64,000 nt of DNA from positions 90,768 to 154,767 of the forward strand of contig SVRT01000002.1 of assembly GCA_015064685.1 (NCBI GenBank). Reading direction: 5' to 3'. The position numbers and the translations under genes are program-made. The notes beneath the pieces are model-generated. The model was given only the letters and a program-made list of their open reading frames with translations. It searched no databases and was not told where the DNA came from. The stretch's first letter is position 1. Every line of letters starts with the position of its first letter. The stretch comes from Oscillospiraceae bacterium (GTDB lineage: Bacteria; Bacillota; Clostridia; Oscillospirales; CAG-272). Below are positions 37,414 to 46,592 of the stretch, piece by piece.

Positions 37414-37442
37414 TTGACAAATTACATTATTTGCTCTATAAT
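37414..37442 (+). promoter_or_regulatory. Consensus promoter for the two-HTH regulator
   Basis: Perfect TTGACA (37414-37419) and TATAAT (37437-37442) are separated by 17 bases. Transcription would start near 37449, six bases before the palindrome at 37455-37468. Confidence 0.93.
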
Positions 37443-37454
37443 ATATAATGTATA

Positions 37455-37468
37455 TTCGCTAAAGCGAA
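37455..37468 (+). promoter_or_regulatory. Palindrome TTCGC-N4-GCGAA between promoter and ribosome site
   Basis: TTCGCTAAAGCGAA lies just downstream of the predicted transcription start and one base before AGGAGG of the regulator gene. The same 5-4-5 pattern with other centres occurs twice after the gene. It may be an autoregulatory operator or an RNA hairpin that masks the ribosome site. Confidence 0.6.
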
Positions 37469-37479
37469 CAGGAGGCAAT

Positions 37480-38697
37480 ATGGAATTCATTACCGTAAAG
37501 CAGGCAGCAGAAAAATGGGGTGTCAGTACAAGACGTGTTCAAGTCCTTTGTGCGCAGGACCGCGTCAAAGGGGCATACCGTTTCGGCAGGTCGTGGATGA
37601 TACCCGAGAAAGCAGTACTACCCAATGCGTACCGCACCGAGGAAGAGAAAATGCCAATGCCAAGACGCAGTCCTTTTCTTGATATGACCGATCTGTATAA
37701 TAAGGCAGGCGGAGCTGATGAGTGTGCTGAAATGCTGATCAACCGCCCGGAAGCATACGCCCTTTTCGAAGCACAGCTTGCATACAGACGCGGTGAGATC
37801 GATAAGGTATACGACCGTGCAAGATTTTTCCTTTCGTCACATTCGGGCTTTTACGCGATACTAGGCGGAGGAATGTTGCTTGCGCAGTGTGCAATATGGC
37901 GCGGAGACTTTGCTCTTTGGACTGAGGCAAAAAAACACATTTGCGAAGCACCTTGTCAGACAAAAGAAGAAAGGGAAATAATTTCACTTTCACTTGCAAT
38001 AATCGACAGTTCTGTCTATGATAACAAGGATTATCCCGAATGGTTCAAATCCGGAAACTTCGAAACCTTGCCAGCAGATGCACATCCTGCGGCAAAGGTA
38101 TTTTACGTCAAGTATCTCTATATGGCGGCTTACGCAATAGCATCCGGAAAGCTTCAATACGAAGGAGCGCAGGGGCTCGCCGTAATGAAAATGATCCCGA
38201 ATGCTGTCGAGCCGCTGATCACACAATCGGTTGTTGATAAGACAGTAATTCCCGAAATATTCCTCAGAATGTCCTGCGCAGTGGCATATCACAATTCAGG
38301 AGAAAGAGAAAAGGCTATAAAGCACATTGATAAAGCAATCGCCTTAGCTCTTCCCGATAAGCTATACGGCATTCTGACTGAATACATAAGGCATTTTAAC
38401 GGCCTTCTTGAGGAGAGGCTTTTACTTGTTGATGAGCGTGCTTTGAACGAGATTAATGAACTATATGACAGATATAGGCTCGGATGGGCAAGGCTTTCCG
38501 GGCAGGTAAGGAACAAGCAGATTGCGACCAACCTTACACCCAGGGAACACGAGGTTGCAAAGCTCAAGACATTCGGCTTCAAGCCAAAGCAGATTGGAGA
38601 GATGCTTTATCTTTCTGAGTCTATGGTGAGATATCTTATCACTCAAATAGCAAATAAAGCCGGCTGTGATGAAGATGACTTTTCGGAAATTATTTAA
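37480..38697 (+). CDS. Transcriptional regulator with N-terminal excisionase/MerR-like and C-terminal LuxR-type HTH
   Basis: This 405-aa protein has two DNA-binding regions. The N-terminus, ITVKQAAEKWGVSTRRVQVLC...GRSWMIPEKA, is an excisionase/MerR-like winged helix. The C-terminus, LTPREHEVAKL...QIGEMLYLSESMVRYLITQIANKAG, is a GerE/LuxR HTH. The middle of about 280 residues is helical with TPR-like repeats, as in MalT-like regulators without the ATPase domain. The true start is the ATG at 37480 after AGGAGG; the 37351 start lies inside the preceding gene and terminator. TTCGC-N4-GCGAA palindromes flank the gene. The signal it senses is unknown. Confidence 0.87.
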   Translation: MEFITVKQAAEKWGVSTRRVQVLCAQDRVKGAYRFGRSWMIPEKAVLPNAYRTEEEKMPMPRRSPFLDMTDLYNKAGGADECAEMLINRPEAYALFEAQLAYRRGEIDKVYDRARFFLSSHSGFYAILGGGMLLAQCAIWRGDFALWTEAKKHICEAPCQTKEEREIISLSLAIIDSSVYDNKDYPEWFKSGNFETLPADAHPAAKVFYVKYLYMAAYAIASGKLQYEGAQGLAVMKMIPNAVEPLITQSVVDKTVIPEIFLRMSCAVAYHNSGEREKAIKHIDKAIALALPDKLYGILTEYIRHFNGLLEERLLLVDERALNEINELYDRYRLGWARLSGQVRNKQIATNLTPREHEVAKLKTFGFKPKQIGEMLYLSESMVRYLITQIANKAGCDEDDFSEII

Positions 38698-38701
38698 CCT
38701 G

Positions 38702-38749
38702 TTCGCGTATGCGAATAGGCTTCAATGGCGAACTGTTCGCAGTGGCGAA
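38702..38749 (+). promoter_or_regulatory. Cluster of two TTCGC-N4-GCGAA palindromes plus one half site
   Basis: TTCGCGTATGCGAA (38702-38715) and TTCGCAGTGGCGAA (38736-38749) flank a GCGAA half site (38728-38732). They start four bases after the regulator stop codon and precede the terminator at 38790. No promoter is obvious directly at them, so RNA hairpins in the 3' region are as likely as DNA operators. Confidence 0.55.
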
Positions 38750-38789
38750 TAGATTTGATTGAACAAAATAATGACTTTCATATCAAATG

Positions 38790-38832
38790 ACGTGATTTTT
38801 CTCTTTTTTAAAGGAAAAATCACGTTATTTTT
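38790..38832 (+). terminator. Terminator after the regulator gene
   Basis: ACGTGATTTTTC and GAAAAATCACGT pair perfectly over 12 bases around a T-rich loop, followed by TATTTTTAT. Confidence 0.75.
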
Positions 38833-38902
38833 ATCTTACCAAATTGCGTTTATTTGGATAAAAACCGCAATAATAATTGTTGAAATTCGCCGATGTTCTC
38901 TA

Positions 38903-38932
38903 GTGACAAATCTTTTTTCCGTATGATATAAT
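38903..38932 (+). promoter_or_regulatory. Promoter for the small Cys protein and surface protein genes
   Basis: GTGACA (38903-38908) and TATAAT (38927-38932) are 18 bases apart, about 33 bases before the start codon at 38966. Confidence 0.7.
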
Positions 38933-38965: not shown

Positions 38966-39286
38966 ATGGAAAAAAGAAGAGAAGGCGATCTCTACCAATC
39001 AGTCGAAATCTACGGCAAAGTATTCGATATATACTATGGGTATTACGAGGATTTTGAAAGAAACAGTAAGTATAATGATCCCGTGCCGGTGTATCCCGAT
39101 CTGGTGACAAATCCCGAGTACAACGATGAAGCGTACAGGATCGTAACACAAATGCAGATTGCGTGTGACGATTATTCGGGCAAGCACGGCGAGGACCGAT
39201 GCGGTCTGTGTTCTCATTTTGAAAAGGGAAGCAATCTATTCGGACTGTGTACTTGTGAGAACCAAAGAAACAAAGAAAATAAATAA
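38966..39286 (+). CDS. Conserved small protein with a C-terminal Cys motif
   Basis: This 106-aa protein has no signal peptide or TM. It is rich in acidic and aromatic residues (FDIYYGYYEDFERNSKY), and near the end has the motif CGLCSHFEKGSNLFGLCTC, four Cys in a pattern that could bind a metal or Fe-S cluster. I recall similar unnamed clostridial proteins with a C-x-x-C-x-x-F...GLC core but no known function. AAAGGAGAA precedes the ATG. A secreted-protein gene follows 35 bases later, probably on the same transcript. Confidence 0.72.
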   Translation: MEKRREGDLYQSVEIYGKVFDIYYGYYEDFERNSKYNDPVPVYPDLVTNPEYNDEAYRIVTQMQIACDDYSGKHGEDRCGLCSHFEKGSNLFGLCTCENQRNKENK

Positions 39287-39321: not shown

Positions 39322-41853
39322 ATGAAAAAAACCAAAAGCAAAATCGGTCTCTTATCACTGATCGGACTTACGTTAATGCTTAGCATAATAATTGCTATGG
39401 GCATTATCTCATCGAGTGCAACCGATGAAACAAGCGGATCAATATTGGATGATGTCGATATACCACCTGTCGCGTATCCTCATCAGGACACATCTTCCTT
39501 TGATGTTGACATGAATGCATTGTATTCATGCTTCTCCGAAACACTTGAATTAGATTATGCTGACGGAATAGTCAGAATAGAAGATATGGAATACGCAGAA
39601 GTTTATTATAATTCTCCTAACGGGTTTTTTCCGTTAGAACTTGTGGATGGATATTGGACAGCCGAGATTGGGGAAAGAAGAAACGATTATTCAAACGGTG
39701 ATTACGAAATAGTCAATATAACTTCTTCAAAAAATAAAAACGGCATCTATTGGCGCATAAACTACATCGACGGGAAATTAGATCCCTATATTAACTTTGT
39801 TAAATACGAGCCATACATTGAAATGATCATTAATGCCAAATCAGATTCATTAAGATTTCTCTATATGATTGATGAATATAACGTTGATGATACATATTCA
39901 AAGGGTGTTCTGCAAACCCACAGTGTAAGTAACAATAATGTCGAGCCTAGTAAAACTGTTTATTATAATCCGGATAAAACAGCAAAATACGCTACGGTAT
40001 ATTTAAACGGATATTACTACTATTTCCCGGGCCAGGGCTGGTCAAGTAATTGGTCAATATTCACCCCTTGCGATGCGCCTGCAGGATATGAGGACGCAGA
40101 CGAAATATACTTTACGTCAGATTGTCCCTCATTTTTCCCCTGTGAGCATCCTGAATGGTCTGAGGCGAGTTGTACTTTGCCCAAAACATGCATGAAATGT
40201 GGCGAGACCGAGGGCGAATCTCTTGGCGGTCACGTCTGGGGAGAGCTTGGAAGCGAAAACAGATCTATCTGCACGGTTTGCAATGAAAAAATAATCCCTG
40301 ATTTTGATTTTATCGTTGGAGCATACAATGATCTCAGCGAAGCTGGATTCCAGTCACAAAAAATCAGAGATGCGCTTCCTGCTGAAATCGAGGTTAAATA
40401 CGAGAATGGCAAGTATATGGTAAAAGACTTCGGTGGTGTCACCGCAACCGGATTCACCGACATCGATTATATTAGAACCGATCTCACACTTGTCGACGGA
40501 TACTGGATATACGAGGTAAGCGAAGAAATATACAATAGCGATGACATATCGATTTACGTGGAGTTTTTCGGCGAGGATGATATTTGGGAAATTGAGTACT
40601 GTGACGGAATTTTCTACGGTGCTATTCAATTGGTAGATAGGACACCCAACAATTATAAATGTATTCTTATTTACCTTGACTACGATTTAGTTGAAACCAT
40701 TTACGTGGTCGGAGAAAGGGAATACAGAGACGAATATGTGAATGGCATATTCAACGCTCAACAAGTTTTTTCCGAAGTTGATGGTTACGGCGTATATGTA
40801 GAATACGATTCAACCGGCAACATCGAATATGTGAGTGCATATGGTGATGATCATAACTTCTATTACTACTATCCCGAATACGGCTGGAAGAATACACCGG
40901 TTAGCTACGATGATCCTCAATACTCCTGCGATGCCCCGAAGGGATTTGAAAACGCAGACGTTAACTTCTTTATGAGCGTAGCCCCCTTCACACTGGGCTG
41001 CACCCATGAGGAATATACCCCTGCTAACTGCACTAATCCCGAAAGATGTGCAGTATGCGGAAGAGCAAAAGATGGAACCGAAGCTCTTGGACATACAGTT
41101 GTCACTGTAGAGAAGAAAGAGCCCTCTTGCTCCGGTGTTGGGTATTCGGAGTGGACTTATTGCTCGGTTTGTGAAGAAATACTTGAAGAACCTGATGAGA
41201 TCCCATCGCTCGGACATGACATCGTCACCGATGCAGCAGTTGCTCCCACATGCACAGAAACAGGGCTTACCGAAGGCTCTCACTGCACAAGATGCAGCGA
41301 AGCAACCGTAGAGCAGACCGAGGTTCCCGCGCTCGGACATGACAAGGTAACCGATGCAGCAGTCGCTCCCACATGCACGGAAACAGGCCTTTCAGAGGGA
41401 TATCATTGCTCAAGATGTGATGAAATTATCACAGAGCAGACCGAGGTTTCCGCGCTTGGACATGACAAGGTAACCGATGCAGCAGTCGCTCCCACATGCA
41501 CGGAAACAGGTCTTTCAGAGGGATATCATTGCTCAAGATGTGATGAAATTATCACAGAGCAGACCGAAGTTCCCGCACTTGGACACGATTACAAGGACGC
41601 AACCACTTCAGCTCCCAAGACCTGCAAGTTATGCGGCCATACAGTAGGTGATCCGCTTCCCGTAGAGTCCGAAACAGATGCGGCAGACGAGACCGAGAAG
41701 ACAGAGGAGAGCACAAAAGCCGAGGCGACCAAAAAGCCCGATGATAAGAAAGAGAAAAATAATAACGGATGCAAATCAAGCATCGGCTTCGTTTCTATAT
41801 CTGCTGCAGTTATCTTGGGTGCGATCTGCATCTTCAAGAAGAAAAAGAACTAA
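39322..41853 (+). CDS. Large secreted, membrane-anchored protein with duplicated domain and Cys/His repeats
   Basis: This 843-aa protein has an N-terminal signal sequence (LLSLIGLTLMLSIIIAMG). The body is a tandem duplication of a unit of about 270 residues; both copies have LVDGYW, a Y-x-YYYYP(E/G)-type aromatic stretch, CDAP-x-G(Y/F)E-x-AD and a Cys-containing end (CMKCGETEG; CAVCGRAKDG). Four Cys/His units follow, the last three nearly identical. A Thr/Lys linker, NNGCKSSIG, one TM and KKKK close the protein, looking like a C-terminal anchor. The start at 39322 has GGAGG in place; the TTG at 39307 is inside it. Probably a surface adhesin or sensor; function unknown. Confidence 0.78.
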   Translation: MKKTKSKIGLLSLIGLTLMLSIIIAMGIISSSATDETSGSILDDVDIPPVAYPHQDTSSFDVDMNALYSCFSETLELDYADGIVRIEDMEYAEVYYNSPNGFFPLELVDGYWTAEIGERRNDYSNGDYEIVNITSSKNKNGIYWRINYIDGKLDPYINFVKYEPYIEMIINAKSDSLRFLYMIDEYNVDDTYSKGVLQTHSVSNNNVEPSKTVYYNPDKTAKYATVYLNGYYYYFPGQGWSSNWSIFTPCDAPAGYEDADEIYFTSDCPSFFPCEHPEWSEASCTLPKTCMKCGETEGESLGGHVWGELGSENRSICTVCNEKIIPDFDFIVGAYNDLSEAGFQSQKIRDALPAEIEVKYENGKYMVKDFGGVTATGFTDIDYIRTDLTLVDGYWIYEVSEEIYNSDDISIYVEFFGEDDIWEIEYCDGIFYGAIQLVDRTPNNYKCILIYLDYDLVETIYVVGEREYRDEYVNGIFNAQQVFSEVDGYGVYVEYDSTGNIEYVSAYGDDHNFYYYYPEYGWKNTPVSYDDPQYSCDAPKGFENADVNFFMSVAPFTLGCTHEEYTPANCTNPERCAVCGRAKDGTEALGHTVVTVEKKEPSCSGVGYSEWTYCSVCEEILEEPDEIPSLGHDIVTDAAVAPTCTETGLTEGSHCTRCSEATVEQTEVPALGHDKVTDAAVAPTCTETGLSEGYHCSRCDEIITEQTEVSALGHDKVTDAAVAPTCTETGLSEGYHCSRCDEIITEQTEVPALGHDYKDATTSAPKTCKLCGHTVGDPLPVESETDAADETEKTEESTKAEATKKPDDKKEKNNNGCKSSIGFVSISAAVILGAICIFKKKKN
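41209..41577 (+). repeat. Three tandem 123-base coding repeats
   Basis: Three units of 123 bases (41 codons) start at 41209, 41332 and 41455, each encoding LGHD-x-VTDAAVAPTCTETGL and four Cys/His positions. Units two and three are almost identical in DNA, implying recent duplication or gene conversion. Confidence 0.9.
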
Positions 41854-42062: not shown

Positions 42063-45000
42063 ATGAAAAACACAACAAAAAAGATCGTTTCCAGTGTTAT
42101 TGCACTCGCACTTTCTTTTCTCATGCTCATCGGCACGACTTGGGCATGGTTTACAGACAGTGTAACAAGCGCAGGAAATAAGATCCAGGCAGGAAACCTC
42201 AAGCTTGATCTTGAACTTCTTGATCAAGAGACAGGCGTATGGAATTCCATCAAGGACAGTAAAGAACCCCTCTTTACACACGAGAATTGGGAACCCGGCT
42301 ATACCGACGTAACCATTCTTAAGGTAGAGAACGAGGGAAGCCTTGCTCTCAAATGGGAGGCAAGATTTGTCTCTGCGAACGGTGTATCCAAGCTCGCAGA
42401 AGCGATCGACGTCTACGTAAAGCCCAGCGAGACTGAATTGTCCTATCCCGCAGGCAGAGATGAGATCACCGCTGCAAACGGCTGGGAAATGGTTGGCTCA
42501 CTTGACAAATTTATTGACACACTTTCAGATACAACCTACGGAGACCTTCTCCCGGGTAAGTGCGCATACCTCGGTATCGCTCTCAAGATGAGAGAGAATG
42601 CAGGCAACGAGTACCAGAATCTCACACTCGGCGCATTTGATATTCTCATCGTTGCAACTCAAAAGGCATATGAATCAGACGACCTCGGCGACGATTATGA
42701 CAATAATGCAGAATGGCCCGAGTTCGAGATGAACTTCGAGACAACAAAGTCTCTTGACGGCGTTGCAACACTCTATAACGAGCTTGCCGAGGATGTAATC
42801 ATCCGTCACGAGGCAACAGGCGCGTATGCGGTCGTTCCCGCGGGCGTAAAGCTTAAGGATGGCGCAACCGAGCTCAAGTTCTCGGGTAAGTCCTTAGCAA
42901 CGGGCGGAACCATCTCCGACTCCGCGAGAAACTACGATATCCACATCGAGGGAATCGCTGATGATAACACCAAGTGCATCACCGTCTACATAGGCGCGAT
43001 CCTTCCCGCAAACCTCGCTGATACAGCGCTCAAGCTCTACCACGAGGACACTCTTATGACGAGAGTCAATAGCGTATCCGATTTCGCTATGAACAACCAG
43101 TTCACCTACGATCCCGCAACGGGCGCAGTAGTCCTCTACGTCGATAACTTCTCAGTCTTCTCGGCAGTGCAGTCAAATGCTGACGAGTGGGACGGCACGT
43201 CCGACACAACCTGGTATAACGAAAACGATACCGAGTTCACTCTCACAACCGCAGAGCAATTCGCAGGCTTCAGAGACCTCGTTGACGGCGGAAATACCTT
43301 CGCAGGTAAGACTGTTAAGCTCGGCGCAGACATTGACCTCGCAGACAAGCCCTTCGACCCCATCGGCTTTGGTTATTACGACGATGATAATTCTGACGGC
43401 AAGACAAACTATAGCGTCTTCATGGGTACCTTCGACGGTGCAGGTCGTACCATCTACAACCTCTACGAGAATTGCTGGGAGCTTGACCCCGATAAGACAA
43501 ACTACAGCACCTACACATACAGCACCGCGGGCGCAGGACTCTTCGCATCCATCAAGGACGCAACCATTAAGAACCTCGCTGTAAGCGGCGCAGAGATCGT
43601 TTTCGAATGCGTAGATATGGGCGTAGTCGTTGGCTACGCGCAGGGAACCTGCCACTTTGAAAATATAGTTGTAACAGACTCCAACATCGCAAACTATAAC
43701 CGCTACACAGGCGGCGTAGTCGGTGAGGTAAGCTACGGTCCTTACGGCATCGATACAAGCCTTGGCTACAGCCACACCTTCAAGAATGTCACCGTCGACT
43801 CCTCTGTTAAGGTCTCAGGCCTTTGGGGATCATTCGGCTGCGGAATGGGCGGTGTTATCGGCGGTAAGTGGGGCGATGCAACCGTTAAGATGGAGAACGT
43901 TATCTCCGCTGCAGAGATGGACGTCTACAACGACGTCGTATCCGCATACCAGTGGTATGCATTCCGCGGATGCGGTATGCTTATCGGACATACCGAGGAG
44001 CCTTATTCCGACGGTAGACACTCGGGCAACGCGACAGCAAGCTTCCTTACCTGCGAAAACGTCAAGGTCTACTACGGCGATTGGGTAAATTACCACTACT
44101 ATGAATTTGAAGACCAGGATAACGCAACAGGTCGGAGTTATCCTTGGGTAAGAGCCGAGGAAGGCGAGTATTGCGACCCATTCTCTAACATCAGATACGG
44201 CGTTCCCACCCACGAAGGCGTAAAGGTCAGCGACCTTACCGAGGAAGAACTCACGGCAGTAGCAACCGACTATACCCCCATCGTCTTCGACCAGCTCTAC
44301 GGCGCCGACCGCGGTATGTACGGTACCGCCACGCACGAGGGTGTAACTGTAAACAAAACGAACGTAAAAACCGTTTATATTCACAATAATGAATCTTGGA
44401 CCAATCTCAAACTTGATTATTGGTATAAGAATGGCGAAGACACTTGGACAAACCTCCTTGAATCCATTGTTCTTACCCCTGTTGAAGGCGAAACCGATAT
44501 CTATAAGCTTCAAATTCCTCATTATGCAGATAGCTTTAAGATTACTGGTGACAATAATAAGGAAATCACCTTCCGTCTTATTGATGTAGCAAATAACGGA
44601 TTCTATACCCTTGAAGGAACACATACACATGATTTCAGCGTTAATGACAAATGCATTTGCGGATGTATAAAAGCAACGCTTAACATTAAGAATTATGCGG
44701 AAGCAAACAGTTGGGAAAACGGTGAACAATATGCAGAAATCGTTATTAATAGTGATATTGAAGTAACCGCCAGCTCCAACGGAAATAATGCTAAGTATTA
44801 TACTAGCGGAAATAACTGGAGAATTTATCAAAGTGATAGTGGAACATTTAAGATATCTTCCACAAGCGGAAACATCATTTCTGTTAAGGTAACTTATAGT
44901 TTTGGCAATACAGGTATTCTTACATTAGGCAATGAACAAATAAATTCAGAAGCAGTAGTTGAGGTAAATGACGTTTCCGCAACGTTTGGTGTAGGTAATA

Positions 45001-46592
45001 CCGGAAGTGCTACTAACGGTCAAGTTAGAATAACCGCTATTGAAGTAATTTACTCAACAGCACTTGCATGTGAGCACAAACAAATTACAACTGAAACAAA
45101 GAGTCCTACTTGCACAGAATCTGGATACACAGCTAAAAAGTGCGTTGAATGTGGAAAGATAATTGAAAAGGATGCTGGTGATCCTGCAACAGGTCACTCT
45201 TATAGCGGAGAAGTTACTAAGCAACCGACCTGTACAGAACAAGGATTAACGACCTTTACTTGTGCAAAATGTCAATCAAGCTATCAAGAAAAAATCTCTG
45301 CAACAGGACATACGGATGTTACTACCGATAACGACCACAGATGTGATGTTTGTGGTACTGAAAATGTGACAGAACACGATTACACTGACGGTGTTTGTAA
45401 TTGTGGTGCAGAGGAACCTAGTTTAGAACCCGAGCATACATGCGAAAGCATATGTAGTACATGTAAAAAATGTACTGATAAAGAATGCAACGACGCCGCA
45501 TGTGCCGACAAGTGCGTTTGCTCGACTGACACACCGGCAACTCCTACTTGGGAAAAAGTTGATCTAGCTGATATCCAATCCACCGACGTTGTTATTATTG
45601 TTTGGACTAAAGTAACCGAATCATGGGCAATGTCCAATGACAATGGTACAGGTTCTGCGCCTGCCGCCGTCAAAGTAACAGTCGATGGTAACAATTTGAC
45701 TGGCACAATTACTGACAATATCAAGTGGAACATTTCCAACGATAATGGCTATTTAACTATCTATCCCAACGGAACTACTGAAACATGGCTCTACTGTACA
45801 AATACGAATAACGGAGTTCGTGTAGGTACAAATGCTAATAATAAAGTATTTACCATCGATGCATCAAGCGGCTATCTTAAAAATACGGCAACAGAACGTT
45901 ATCTTGGTGTCTATACAACAAATCCTGATGTTCGTTGTTACACTAATACAACGGGAAATACTGCTGGACAGACACTTTCCTTCTATAAATGTTCCGGCTC
46001 CGAAGGTGGAGAAGAAACAACTCCTTGCGAACACACCAACATAATCACAACAACAGTAGATGCAACTTGCACAGAAGCAGGTTCTACCACCGTAACTTGT
46101 GATGATTGCGGTGAAACCATTAGCTCTGAAGTAATCGAAGCAACAGGCCACCAATATGAAAATGGTATCTGCTCTGTCTGTGATGCTAAAGAATCCGCAT
46201 CACTATCAAATGCAACCTTAAGTTTTACAGACAGTACATCTCGTACTGAATTCAGTACTTTGAAACAGGTATGGGTACAAAACGGTATAACATTTACAAA
46301 TAACAAGTCATCGAGTACAAATAATGTTGCAGACTATTCTAACCCCGTTCGTTTGTATGCAAATTCTGAGGTAATTGTTAAGGGGGCAGGCATGACGGAA
46401 ATCGTTTTCGATTGTAATAGCTCATCTTATGCTACAGCACTTCAGAATTCTATTGGAACTGTAGACGGTGCAAACGTAACTATCAGCAGCGACAAAGTAA
46501 CTGTTACATTTGATTCTGCACGTGATAGTTTTACCATTGCAAAAGTTACTGCACAGGTCAGAATTGATTCCATTACAGTTAACCCCCAGTAA
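42063..46592 (+). CDS. Giant secreted protein with SipW-type signal and mosaic repeat modules
   Basis: This 1509-aa protein begins with a SipW-dependent signal (SFLMLIGTTWAWFTDSVTSAGN), as in TasA/camelysin fibre proteins. A TasA-like domain fills about residues 25-220. Next comes a GLUG-like right-handed repeat region (FAGKTVKLGADIDLA, FMGTFDGAGRTIYNLYEN). From about residue 760 there is a CBM26-like unit (YIHNNESWTNLKLDYWYK), followed by beta modules separated by Cys/His units (SPTCTESGYTAKKCVECGK). Codon use changes near 44340: the first half favours C-ending codons, the second is A/T-rich. There is no C-terminal anchor and no SipW gene in the window. I use the ATG at 42063 since the ORF-track start overlaps the promoter. 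Probably a matrix or fibre protein. Confidence 0.8.
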   Translation: MKNTTKKIVSSVIALALSFLMLIGTTWAWFTDSVTSAGNKIQAGNLKLDLELLDQETGVWNSIKDSKEPLFTHENWEPGYTDVTILKVENEGSLALKWEARFVSANGVSKLAEAIDVYVKPSETELSYPAGRDEITAANGWEMVGSLDKFIDTLSDTTYGDLLPGKCAYLGIALKMRENAGNEYQNLTLGAFDILIVATQKAYESDDLGDDYDNNAEWPEFEMNFETTKSLDGVATLYNELAEDVIIRHEATGAYAVVPAGVKLKDGATELKFSGKSLATGGTISDSARNYDIHIEGIADDNTKCITVYIGAILPANLADTALKLYHEDTLMTRVNSVSDFAMNNQFTYDPATGAVVLYVDNFSVFSAVQSNADEWDGTSDTTWYNENDTEFTLTTAEQFAGFRDLVDGGNTFAGKTVKLGADIDLADKPFDPIGFGYYDDDNSDGKTNYSVFMGTFDGAGRTIYNLYENCWELDPDKTNYSTYTYSTAGAGLFASIKDATIKNLAVSGAEIVFECVDMGVVVGYAQGTCHFENIVVTDSNIANYNRYTGGVVGEVSYGPYGIDTSLGYSHTFKNVTVDSSVKVSGLWGSFGCGMGGVIGGKWGDATVKMENVISAAEMDVYNDVVSAYQWYAFRGCGMLIGHTEEPYSDGRHSGNATASFLTCENVKVYYGDWVNYHYYEFEDQDNATGRSYPWVRAEEGEYCDPFSNIRYGVPTHEGVKVSDLTEEELTAVATDYTPIVFDQLYGADRGMYGTATHEGVTVNKTNVKTVYIHNNESWTNLKLDYWYKNGEDTWTNLLESIVLTPVEGETDIYKLQIPHYADSFKITGDNNKEITFRLIDVANNGFYTLEGTHTHDFSVNDKCICGCIKATLNIKNYAEANSWENGEQYAEIVINSDIEVTASSNGNNAKYYTSGNNWRIYQSDSGTFKISSTSGNIISVKVTYSFGNTGILTLGNEQINSEAVVEVNDVSATFGVGNTGSATNGQVRITAIEVIYSTALACEHKQITTETKSPTCTESGYTAKKCVECGKIIEKDAGDPATGHSYSGEVTKQPTCTEQGLTTFTCAKCQSSYQEKISATGHTDVTTDNDHRCDVCGTENVTEHDYTDGVCNCGAEEPSLEPEHTCESICSTCKKCTDKECNDAACADKCVCSTDTPATPTWEKVDLADIQSTDVVIIVWTKVTESWAMSNDNGTGSAPAAVKVTVDGNNLTGTITDNIKWNISNDNGYLTIYPNGTTETWLYCTNTNNGVRVGTNANNKVFTIDASSGYLKNTATERYLGVYTTNPDVRCYTNTTGNTAGQTLSFYKCSGSEGGEETTPCEHTNIITTTVDATCTEAGSTTVTCDDCGETISSEVIEATGHQYENGICSVCDAKESASLSNATLSFTDSTSRTEFSTLKQVWVQNGITFTNNKSSSTNNVADYSNPVRLYANSEVIVKGAGMTEIVFDCNSSSYATALQNSIGTVDGANVTISSDKVTVTFDSARDSFTIAKVTAQVRIDSITVNPQ

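Follow-up and report, generated by a model that had tools for sequence, protein, structure and literature searches.

We found that the three TTCGC-N4-GCGAA palindromes flanking the gene of a 405-aa regulator in an Oscillospiraceae bacterium are probably the regulator's own operators. The window analysed here is the whole stretch of 64,000 nucleotides of contig SVRT01000002.1 in which this gene lies. Our sequence comparisons point to a protein with two DNA-binding ends, of which the N-terminal HTH_17 domain would read the palindromes and repress its own promoter and the C-terminal LuxR-type HTH would act on the next operon, the HTH_17 domain and its operators probably forming an exchangeable module. 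The sites, their phasing, their restriction to the own locus, their covariation with HTH_17 and the gene order were computed directly. The features of the locus (window coordinates) are:

37414..37442, plus strand: regulator promoter TTGACA-17-TATAAT, a 12/12 consensus match
37453..37470 (core 37455-37468), minus strand: putative Operator 1, exact TGTTCGC-N4-GCGAATA
37480..38697, plus strand: regulator gene, 405 aa, with HTH_17, helical repeats and LuxR/GerE HTH (Pfam, PDB profile search, AlphaFold model)
37489..37617, plus strand: codons of the N-terminal winged HTH (HTH_17, residues 4-46), the presumed reader of the palindromes
38530..38664, plus strand: codons of the C-terminal LuxR/GerE HTH (residues 351-395; Pfam, family profile, AlphaFold model)
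38700..38717 (core 38702-38715), plus strand: putative Operator 2, exact TGTTCGC-N4-GCGAATA, directly 3' of the stop codon
38729..38733, minus strand: half site GCGAA between Operators 2 and 3, read in the sequence
38734..38751 (core 38736-38749), plus strand: putative Operator 3, exact motif, 34 bp from Operator 2
38785..38830, plus strand: strong hairpin, probable terminator of the regulator transcript (17-bp inverted repeat; fold)
38865..38882, plus strand: imperfect dyad CCGCAA-N6-TTGTTG, candidate site of the LuxR HTH (conserved block, four close homologues aligned)
38903..38932, plus strand: promoter of the downstream operon, GTGACA-18-TATAAT
38966..39286, plus strand: gene for a small Cys-rich protein of 106 aa, next to the regulator in 86/99 homologous loci
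39322..41853, plus strand: gene for a large secreted repeat protein with a signal-like N-terminus, C-terminally membrane-anchored

A preliminary description of this DNA had reported the three palindromes, a perfect promoter upstream of the first and a half site near the downstream pair, and all of these were found again. TTCGC-N4-GCGAA occurs three times in the window against 0.07 copies expected, a number reached in none of 100 shuffles, and a scan of the whole window with one mismatch allowed gave no further site. The palindromes are part of a longer, slightly asymmetric motif, TGTTCGC-N4-GCGAATA, which is exact at all three sites and lies on the minus strand at site 1 and on the plus strand at sites 2 and 3. 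Operator 1 is directly adjoined by AGGAGG (37470-37475).

The claim that the protein carries an HTH at both ends was borne out by Pfam, by a family profile and by an AlphaFold model. HTH_17 is found with E=2e-6 and 28.3 bits, above the curated cut-off of 27. As a single sequence, the GerE domain (E=7e-5, 22.9 bits) stays slightly below the Pfam cut-off of 23.5; the profile of 18 homologues matches NarL (1je8) at 4.9e-7. Only weak TPR matches were obtained for the middle part. In the model (mean pLDDT 87), residues 6-42 form a winged HTH with two helices and a wing of two strands. A disordered linker (50-58) leads to the helical repeats (79-344), and the C-terminal HTH (354-394) has helices at 354-364, 369-376 and 380-394. 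Fold searches with this model were weak (best E 0.003), the closest bacterial regulator being domain III of MalT (1hz4; TM 0.42-0.45, E 0.026). Pfam gave no match to a receiver or autoinducer-binding domain at the N-terminus, which is occupied by HTH_17, and none to an NTPase domain with Walker motifs within the 405 residues.

Full-length homologues of the regulator are frequent in the family and its order, and those with named records belong to metagenome-assembled genomes of Clostridia/Oscillospiraceae, mostly from the ruminant gut. Our comparison set comprised 99 distinct full-length homologues, the window's regulator included (98 others). In most of them, one to four palindromes are located in the leader right after the -10 box, with a spelling that varies between homologues: GTTCGC-N4-GCGAAC, TTTCGC-N4-GCGAAA, TTCGTTCGAACGAA, ATAGCG-N6-CGCTAT, TCAGCGCGTAAACGCTGA, GTGCGTTTAAACGCAC and others. 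The expectation that the motif should be conserved near orthologues thus held for the presence of palindromes, but not for their sequence. Perfect dyads with 6/6 arms occur upstream of 97 homologues at 0.81 per 110 nt, compared with 0.18 in shuffled sequence and 0.17 in other parts of these loci (approximately 4.5-fold enrichment). With this detector, 14 of the 97 homologues were without a clear dyad, and L054 has no convincing upstream operator. The axis of the first dyad lies at +10 to +12 or +17 to +20 from the -10 box in 55/76 cases, and the interquartile range of its distance is 11-20 to the -10 box versus 50-85 to the start codon. The operator pitch peaks at 33 bp (40/81 at 32-34) and at 25 bp. 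Judging by axis positions and spacing in the homologue set, the operator-like sites overlap or adjoin their own transcription start. The axis of Operator 1, 19 bp past the end of the -10 box, agrees with the +18 grid of the homologues.

We determined that operator spelling follows the N-terminal domain. Pairwise operator distance correlates with HTH_17 distance at r 0.30, and the partial correlation, given the protein body and GerE, is 0.28 (0/500 permutations, which leave phylogeny in); correlations of this size (r about 0.3) are modest. Operator distance hardly tracks any other segment of the protein, such as residues 60-105 next to HTH_17 (0.085) or GerE (0.10), and DNA upstream of the -35 box does not track HTH_17 (0.04). 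Joint transfer of leader and HTH_17 is rejected as the whole explanation, since the correlation survives both control for masked leader DNA (0.277, 0/500) and restriction to pairs whose leaders are dissimilar and whose HTH_17 domains are no more than 75% identical (0.272). Natural swaps were also detected. L049 and L048 have operators of identical type and are 93% identical in HTH_17, 50% in the body and 40% in GerE; their leaders are nearly identical as well, so this pair represents co-transfer of the module and not an independent test. In turn, L047 and L103 share 95% of the body and 94% of GerE, are 59% identical in HTH_17, and their operators differ. There are hints of contacts between residue 19 and operator position 6, residue 22 and position 8, and residue 35 and position 3. 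From this covariation we infer that the palindromes would be read by the N-terminal HTH_17.

Downstream of the regulator, gene order is conserved; the genes upstream show no conservation across homologous loci. In 77/77 testable loci, the small gene is followed by a gene for a mostly large protein with a signal-like N-terminus, and the domains of these secreted proteins include leucine-rich repeats, GLUG motifs and FctA-type isopeptide domains, among others. The small protein of the window has EGDLY and YGYY motifs and a C..C / C.C pattern; it gave no significant Pfam or NCBIfam match and is possibly a partner or sensor for the regulator. In its large neighbour, the tandem repeats (GHDKVTDAAVAPTCTETGLSEGYHCSRC...) are nearly identical, and a GCKSSIG motif precedes the C-terminal membrane anchor. 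Directly downstream, at 42063-46592, a second large secreted protein is encoded, with a weak N-terminal camelysin/TasA-like (Peptidase_M73) match.

The promoter region of this operon holds the second element. The dyad at 38865-38882 reads CCGCAATAATAATTGTTG in the window, the clade element in L053, L054 and L055 being CGCAA-N6-TTGCGG, and it lies about 65 bp 5' of where the next transcript probably starts. Across homologues, DNA upstream of the downstream promoter tracks GerE (partial r 0.36, 0/300) versus -0.09 for HTH_17. Residues 300-345 track the downstream element like the GerE HTH itself (0.545 versus 0.552), so the C-terminal half of this double dissociation could be partly linkage. It appears from these comparisons that the LuxR HTH reads an element at the next operon's promoter, a weaker claim than that for the N-terminal domain. 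The downstream promoter of the homologues commonly has an extended -10 box within the terminator hairpin of the regulator, TGCTATACTG...CAGTATGGCAGATTTTT. In most homologues (e.g., L017, L047, L048 and L152), this extended -10 promoter (TGCTATACT) is the 5' arm of the hairpin; thus, promoter and terminator are formed by the same bases.

The arrangement of sites on both sides of the gene is a feature of the window's clade. Seven regulators (the window's, L053, L054, L055, L059, L064 and L138) have two sites 3' of the stop codon and at most one convincing site 5' of the gene; the paired site of Operator 2 is kept in all six relatives. The spacing of the downstream pair is 34-35 bp in the four closest members, and L053, L054 and L055 share it with Operators 2 and 3. 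The half site GCGAA is absent at the corresponding place in the relatives included in the downstream-site comparison. Other homologues of at least 63% identity have no sites 3' of the gene and 0-4 detected upstream, and the total number of sites, split or not, is usually near two or three. We read the downstream pair as displaced auxiliary operators, and looping of site 1 to this pair by an oligomer, over 1.25 kb, is plausible. The preliminary description had proposed instead that one protein could link both gene ends by binding the palindromes with its two HTHs. This is an unlikely arrangement: the protein does have two HTHs and the sites do lie at both gene ends, with a 3' pair present in seven regulators of this clade, but the palindromes covary with HTH_17 only and not with GerE, the element that the LuxR HTH tracks is another one, located at the next promoter, and in most homologues all sites are located at one end.

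The invariant arms and free central bases had originally been taken as the pattern of either a protein-binding site or selected RNA stem-loops. The former is supported by the promoter-tied position, the covariation with HTH_17, the private copies and the dyads in untranscribed spacers. For the latter, in which tetraloop hairpins of the transcript would be bound by a protein or would affect stability or translation, it speaks that the palindromes are able to fold, with invariant arms and free loops in the window, and that region 38690-38850 folds far better than shuffles, though largely owing to the terminator. We give this reading little weight. Full dyads are present within the untranscribed -35/-10 spacer of 12/92 promoters, compared with 0.15 expected from shuffles, and the position of the sites is set by the -10 box rather than by the start codon. 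Moreover, site 1 keeps its asymmetric outer bases in the opposite orientation, which would create an A-C mismatch on the transcript, specificity follows a DNA-binding domain, and there is no Rfam match. When half-sites in promoter spacers were paired at random, no excess was seen (21 versus 20.8), unlike in the count of full dyads; the likely cause is that relatives have similar half-sites.

We also found that the operators are private. Throughout the 2.38 Mb assembly (78% complete), TTCGC-N4-GCGAA is clustered only at the window's regulator, and across genomes such clusters are confined to the own regulators; the remaining copies are scattered singles at about the level of the reversed-pattern control. 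Likewise, G009, G010, G011 and G042 each carry exactly two copies of ATAGCG-N6-CGCTAT, always at the own regulator, and six other genomes have none. The cluster is therefore not background, the outcome which the preliminary description had named as speaking against its reading, and the window and genome counts rule out chance origin or a dispersed repeat. Two further TTCGC-N4-GCGAA cores of the own genome are both found in unrelated hairpin arrays. These intergenic arrays (L005:640-740 and L004:1498-1590, on C34 and C17) consist of different short hairpins with GTGATAT or similar linkers and look like a separate repeat family. Paralogues encoded in one genome mostly have different operators. 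Genome G368 contains four regulator copies (L156-L159) with three operator types; its copies on C31 and C34 have identical leaders and HTH_17 and may either have duplicated recently or have been duplicated in the assembly. The control exerted by each regulator seems limited to a single small cluster of surface-protein genes, its own. Autoregulation is a prediction, and a different regulator, encoded elsewhere, might instead target the palindromes; we consider this very improbable, as clustered sites are restricted to this gene in the genome and the sites change with the regulator's own HTH_17, also among paralogues of one genome. Finally, that the palindromes are inverted recombination sites flipping or mobilising the regulator gene is hardly credible: the excisionase-like nature of HTH_17, the opposite orientation of site 1 to the other two, the 20-nt inverted repeats at both ends and the variation of upstream neighbours by genome would fit it, but the two to three sites of relatives are one-sided and follow a promoter-phased grid, and no conserved recombinase gene was found among the neighbours.

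For the operator reading, we infer binding, repression, activation, looping and the signal as follows. The HTH_17 winged helix would bind the palindromes flanking its own gene. Since the array of the family starts at the transcription start and runs, phased, into the 5' leader, autorepression is the most likely outcome of binding. The clade of the window would retain one operator at the promoter and two behind the stop codon as auxiliary operators resembling lac O2, which may form a loop with Operator 1, influence the adjacent operon, or do both. The C-terminal LuxR HTH would read the different dyad 5' of the next operon's promoter and most likely activates the operon of the small Cys protein and the large secreted protein, when a ligand or partner engages the helical-repeat domain. 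HTH_17 and its operators would evolve as one exchangeable module, so that each cassette acquires a private specificity.

This regulator resembles MalT and other LAL-type LuxR regulators in its C-terminal LuxR-type HTH behind a helical-repeat domain, but differs from them by the lack of an NTPase domain and by the extra N-terminal HTH_17 with its own operators. Its N-terminal domain of two helices and a two-strand wing is that of HTH_17/excisionase proteins (MerR-like winged helix); yet, here it would serve as a promoter-operator reader in a larger regulator, with no adjacent recombinase. Classical autorepressors of the lac and lambda type use palindromic operators that are phased or auxiliary. 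Like them, the present system has palindromic operators at or beyond the start of its own transcript, sometimes with a distal auxiliary pair; unlike them, specificity would be rewired repeatedly as the HTH-plus-operator module is exchanged, and there is a second HTH, which would be directed at another promoter. Immunity repressors of Cluster A mycobacteriophages and their stoperators also combine two DNA-binding domains, many related sites and diversifying specificity (PMC9283540, PMC6550527); there, both repressor domains are reported to read one asymmetric site. In contrast, the two domains of our regulator appear to read two different sites, and the sites are confined to the own locus, whereas those of stoperator-type repressors are dispersed through the phage genome. 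Our literature searches on the HTH_17 plus LuxR architecture, as well as on two-domain autoregulated repressors and the coevolution of transcription factors and their sites, retrieved no description of such regulators.

On balance, we lean towards a broader picture of two-headed regulators, each serving one surface-protein cassette, in which module exchange has produced orthogonal private switches, also among paralogues of one genome, and the C-terminal head has its own specificity, evolving differently, for the promoter of the surface proteins. The family represents a natural experiment in the joint change of transcription factors and their binding sites: with about 100 homologues available, each having one target locus, and with many operator spellings and clean cases of domain exchange among them, the sequences allow the HTH_17 recognition code to be worked out. 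Its members would also make a ready source of small, probably orthogonal repressors. The family further points to a way of controlling large surface proteins that is widespread in gut Clostridia, chiefly those of ruminants, and of which we found no previous description.
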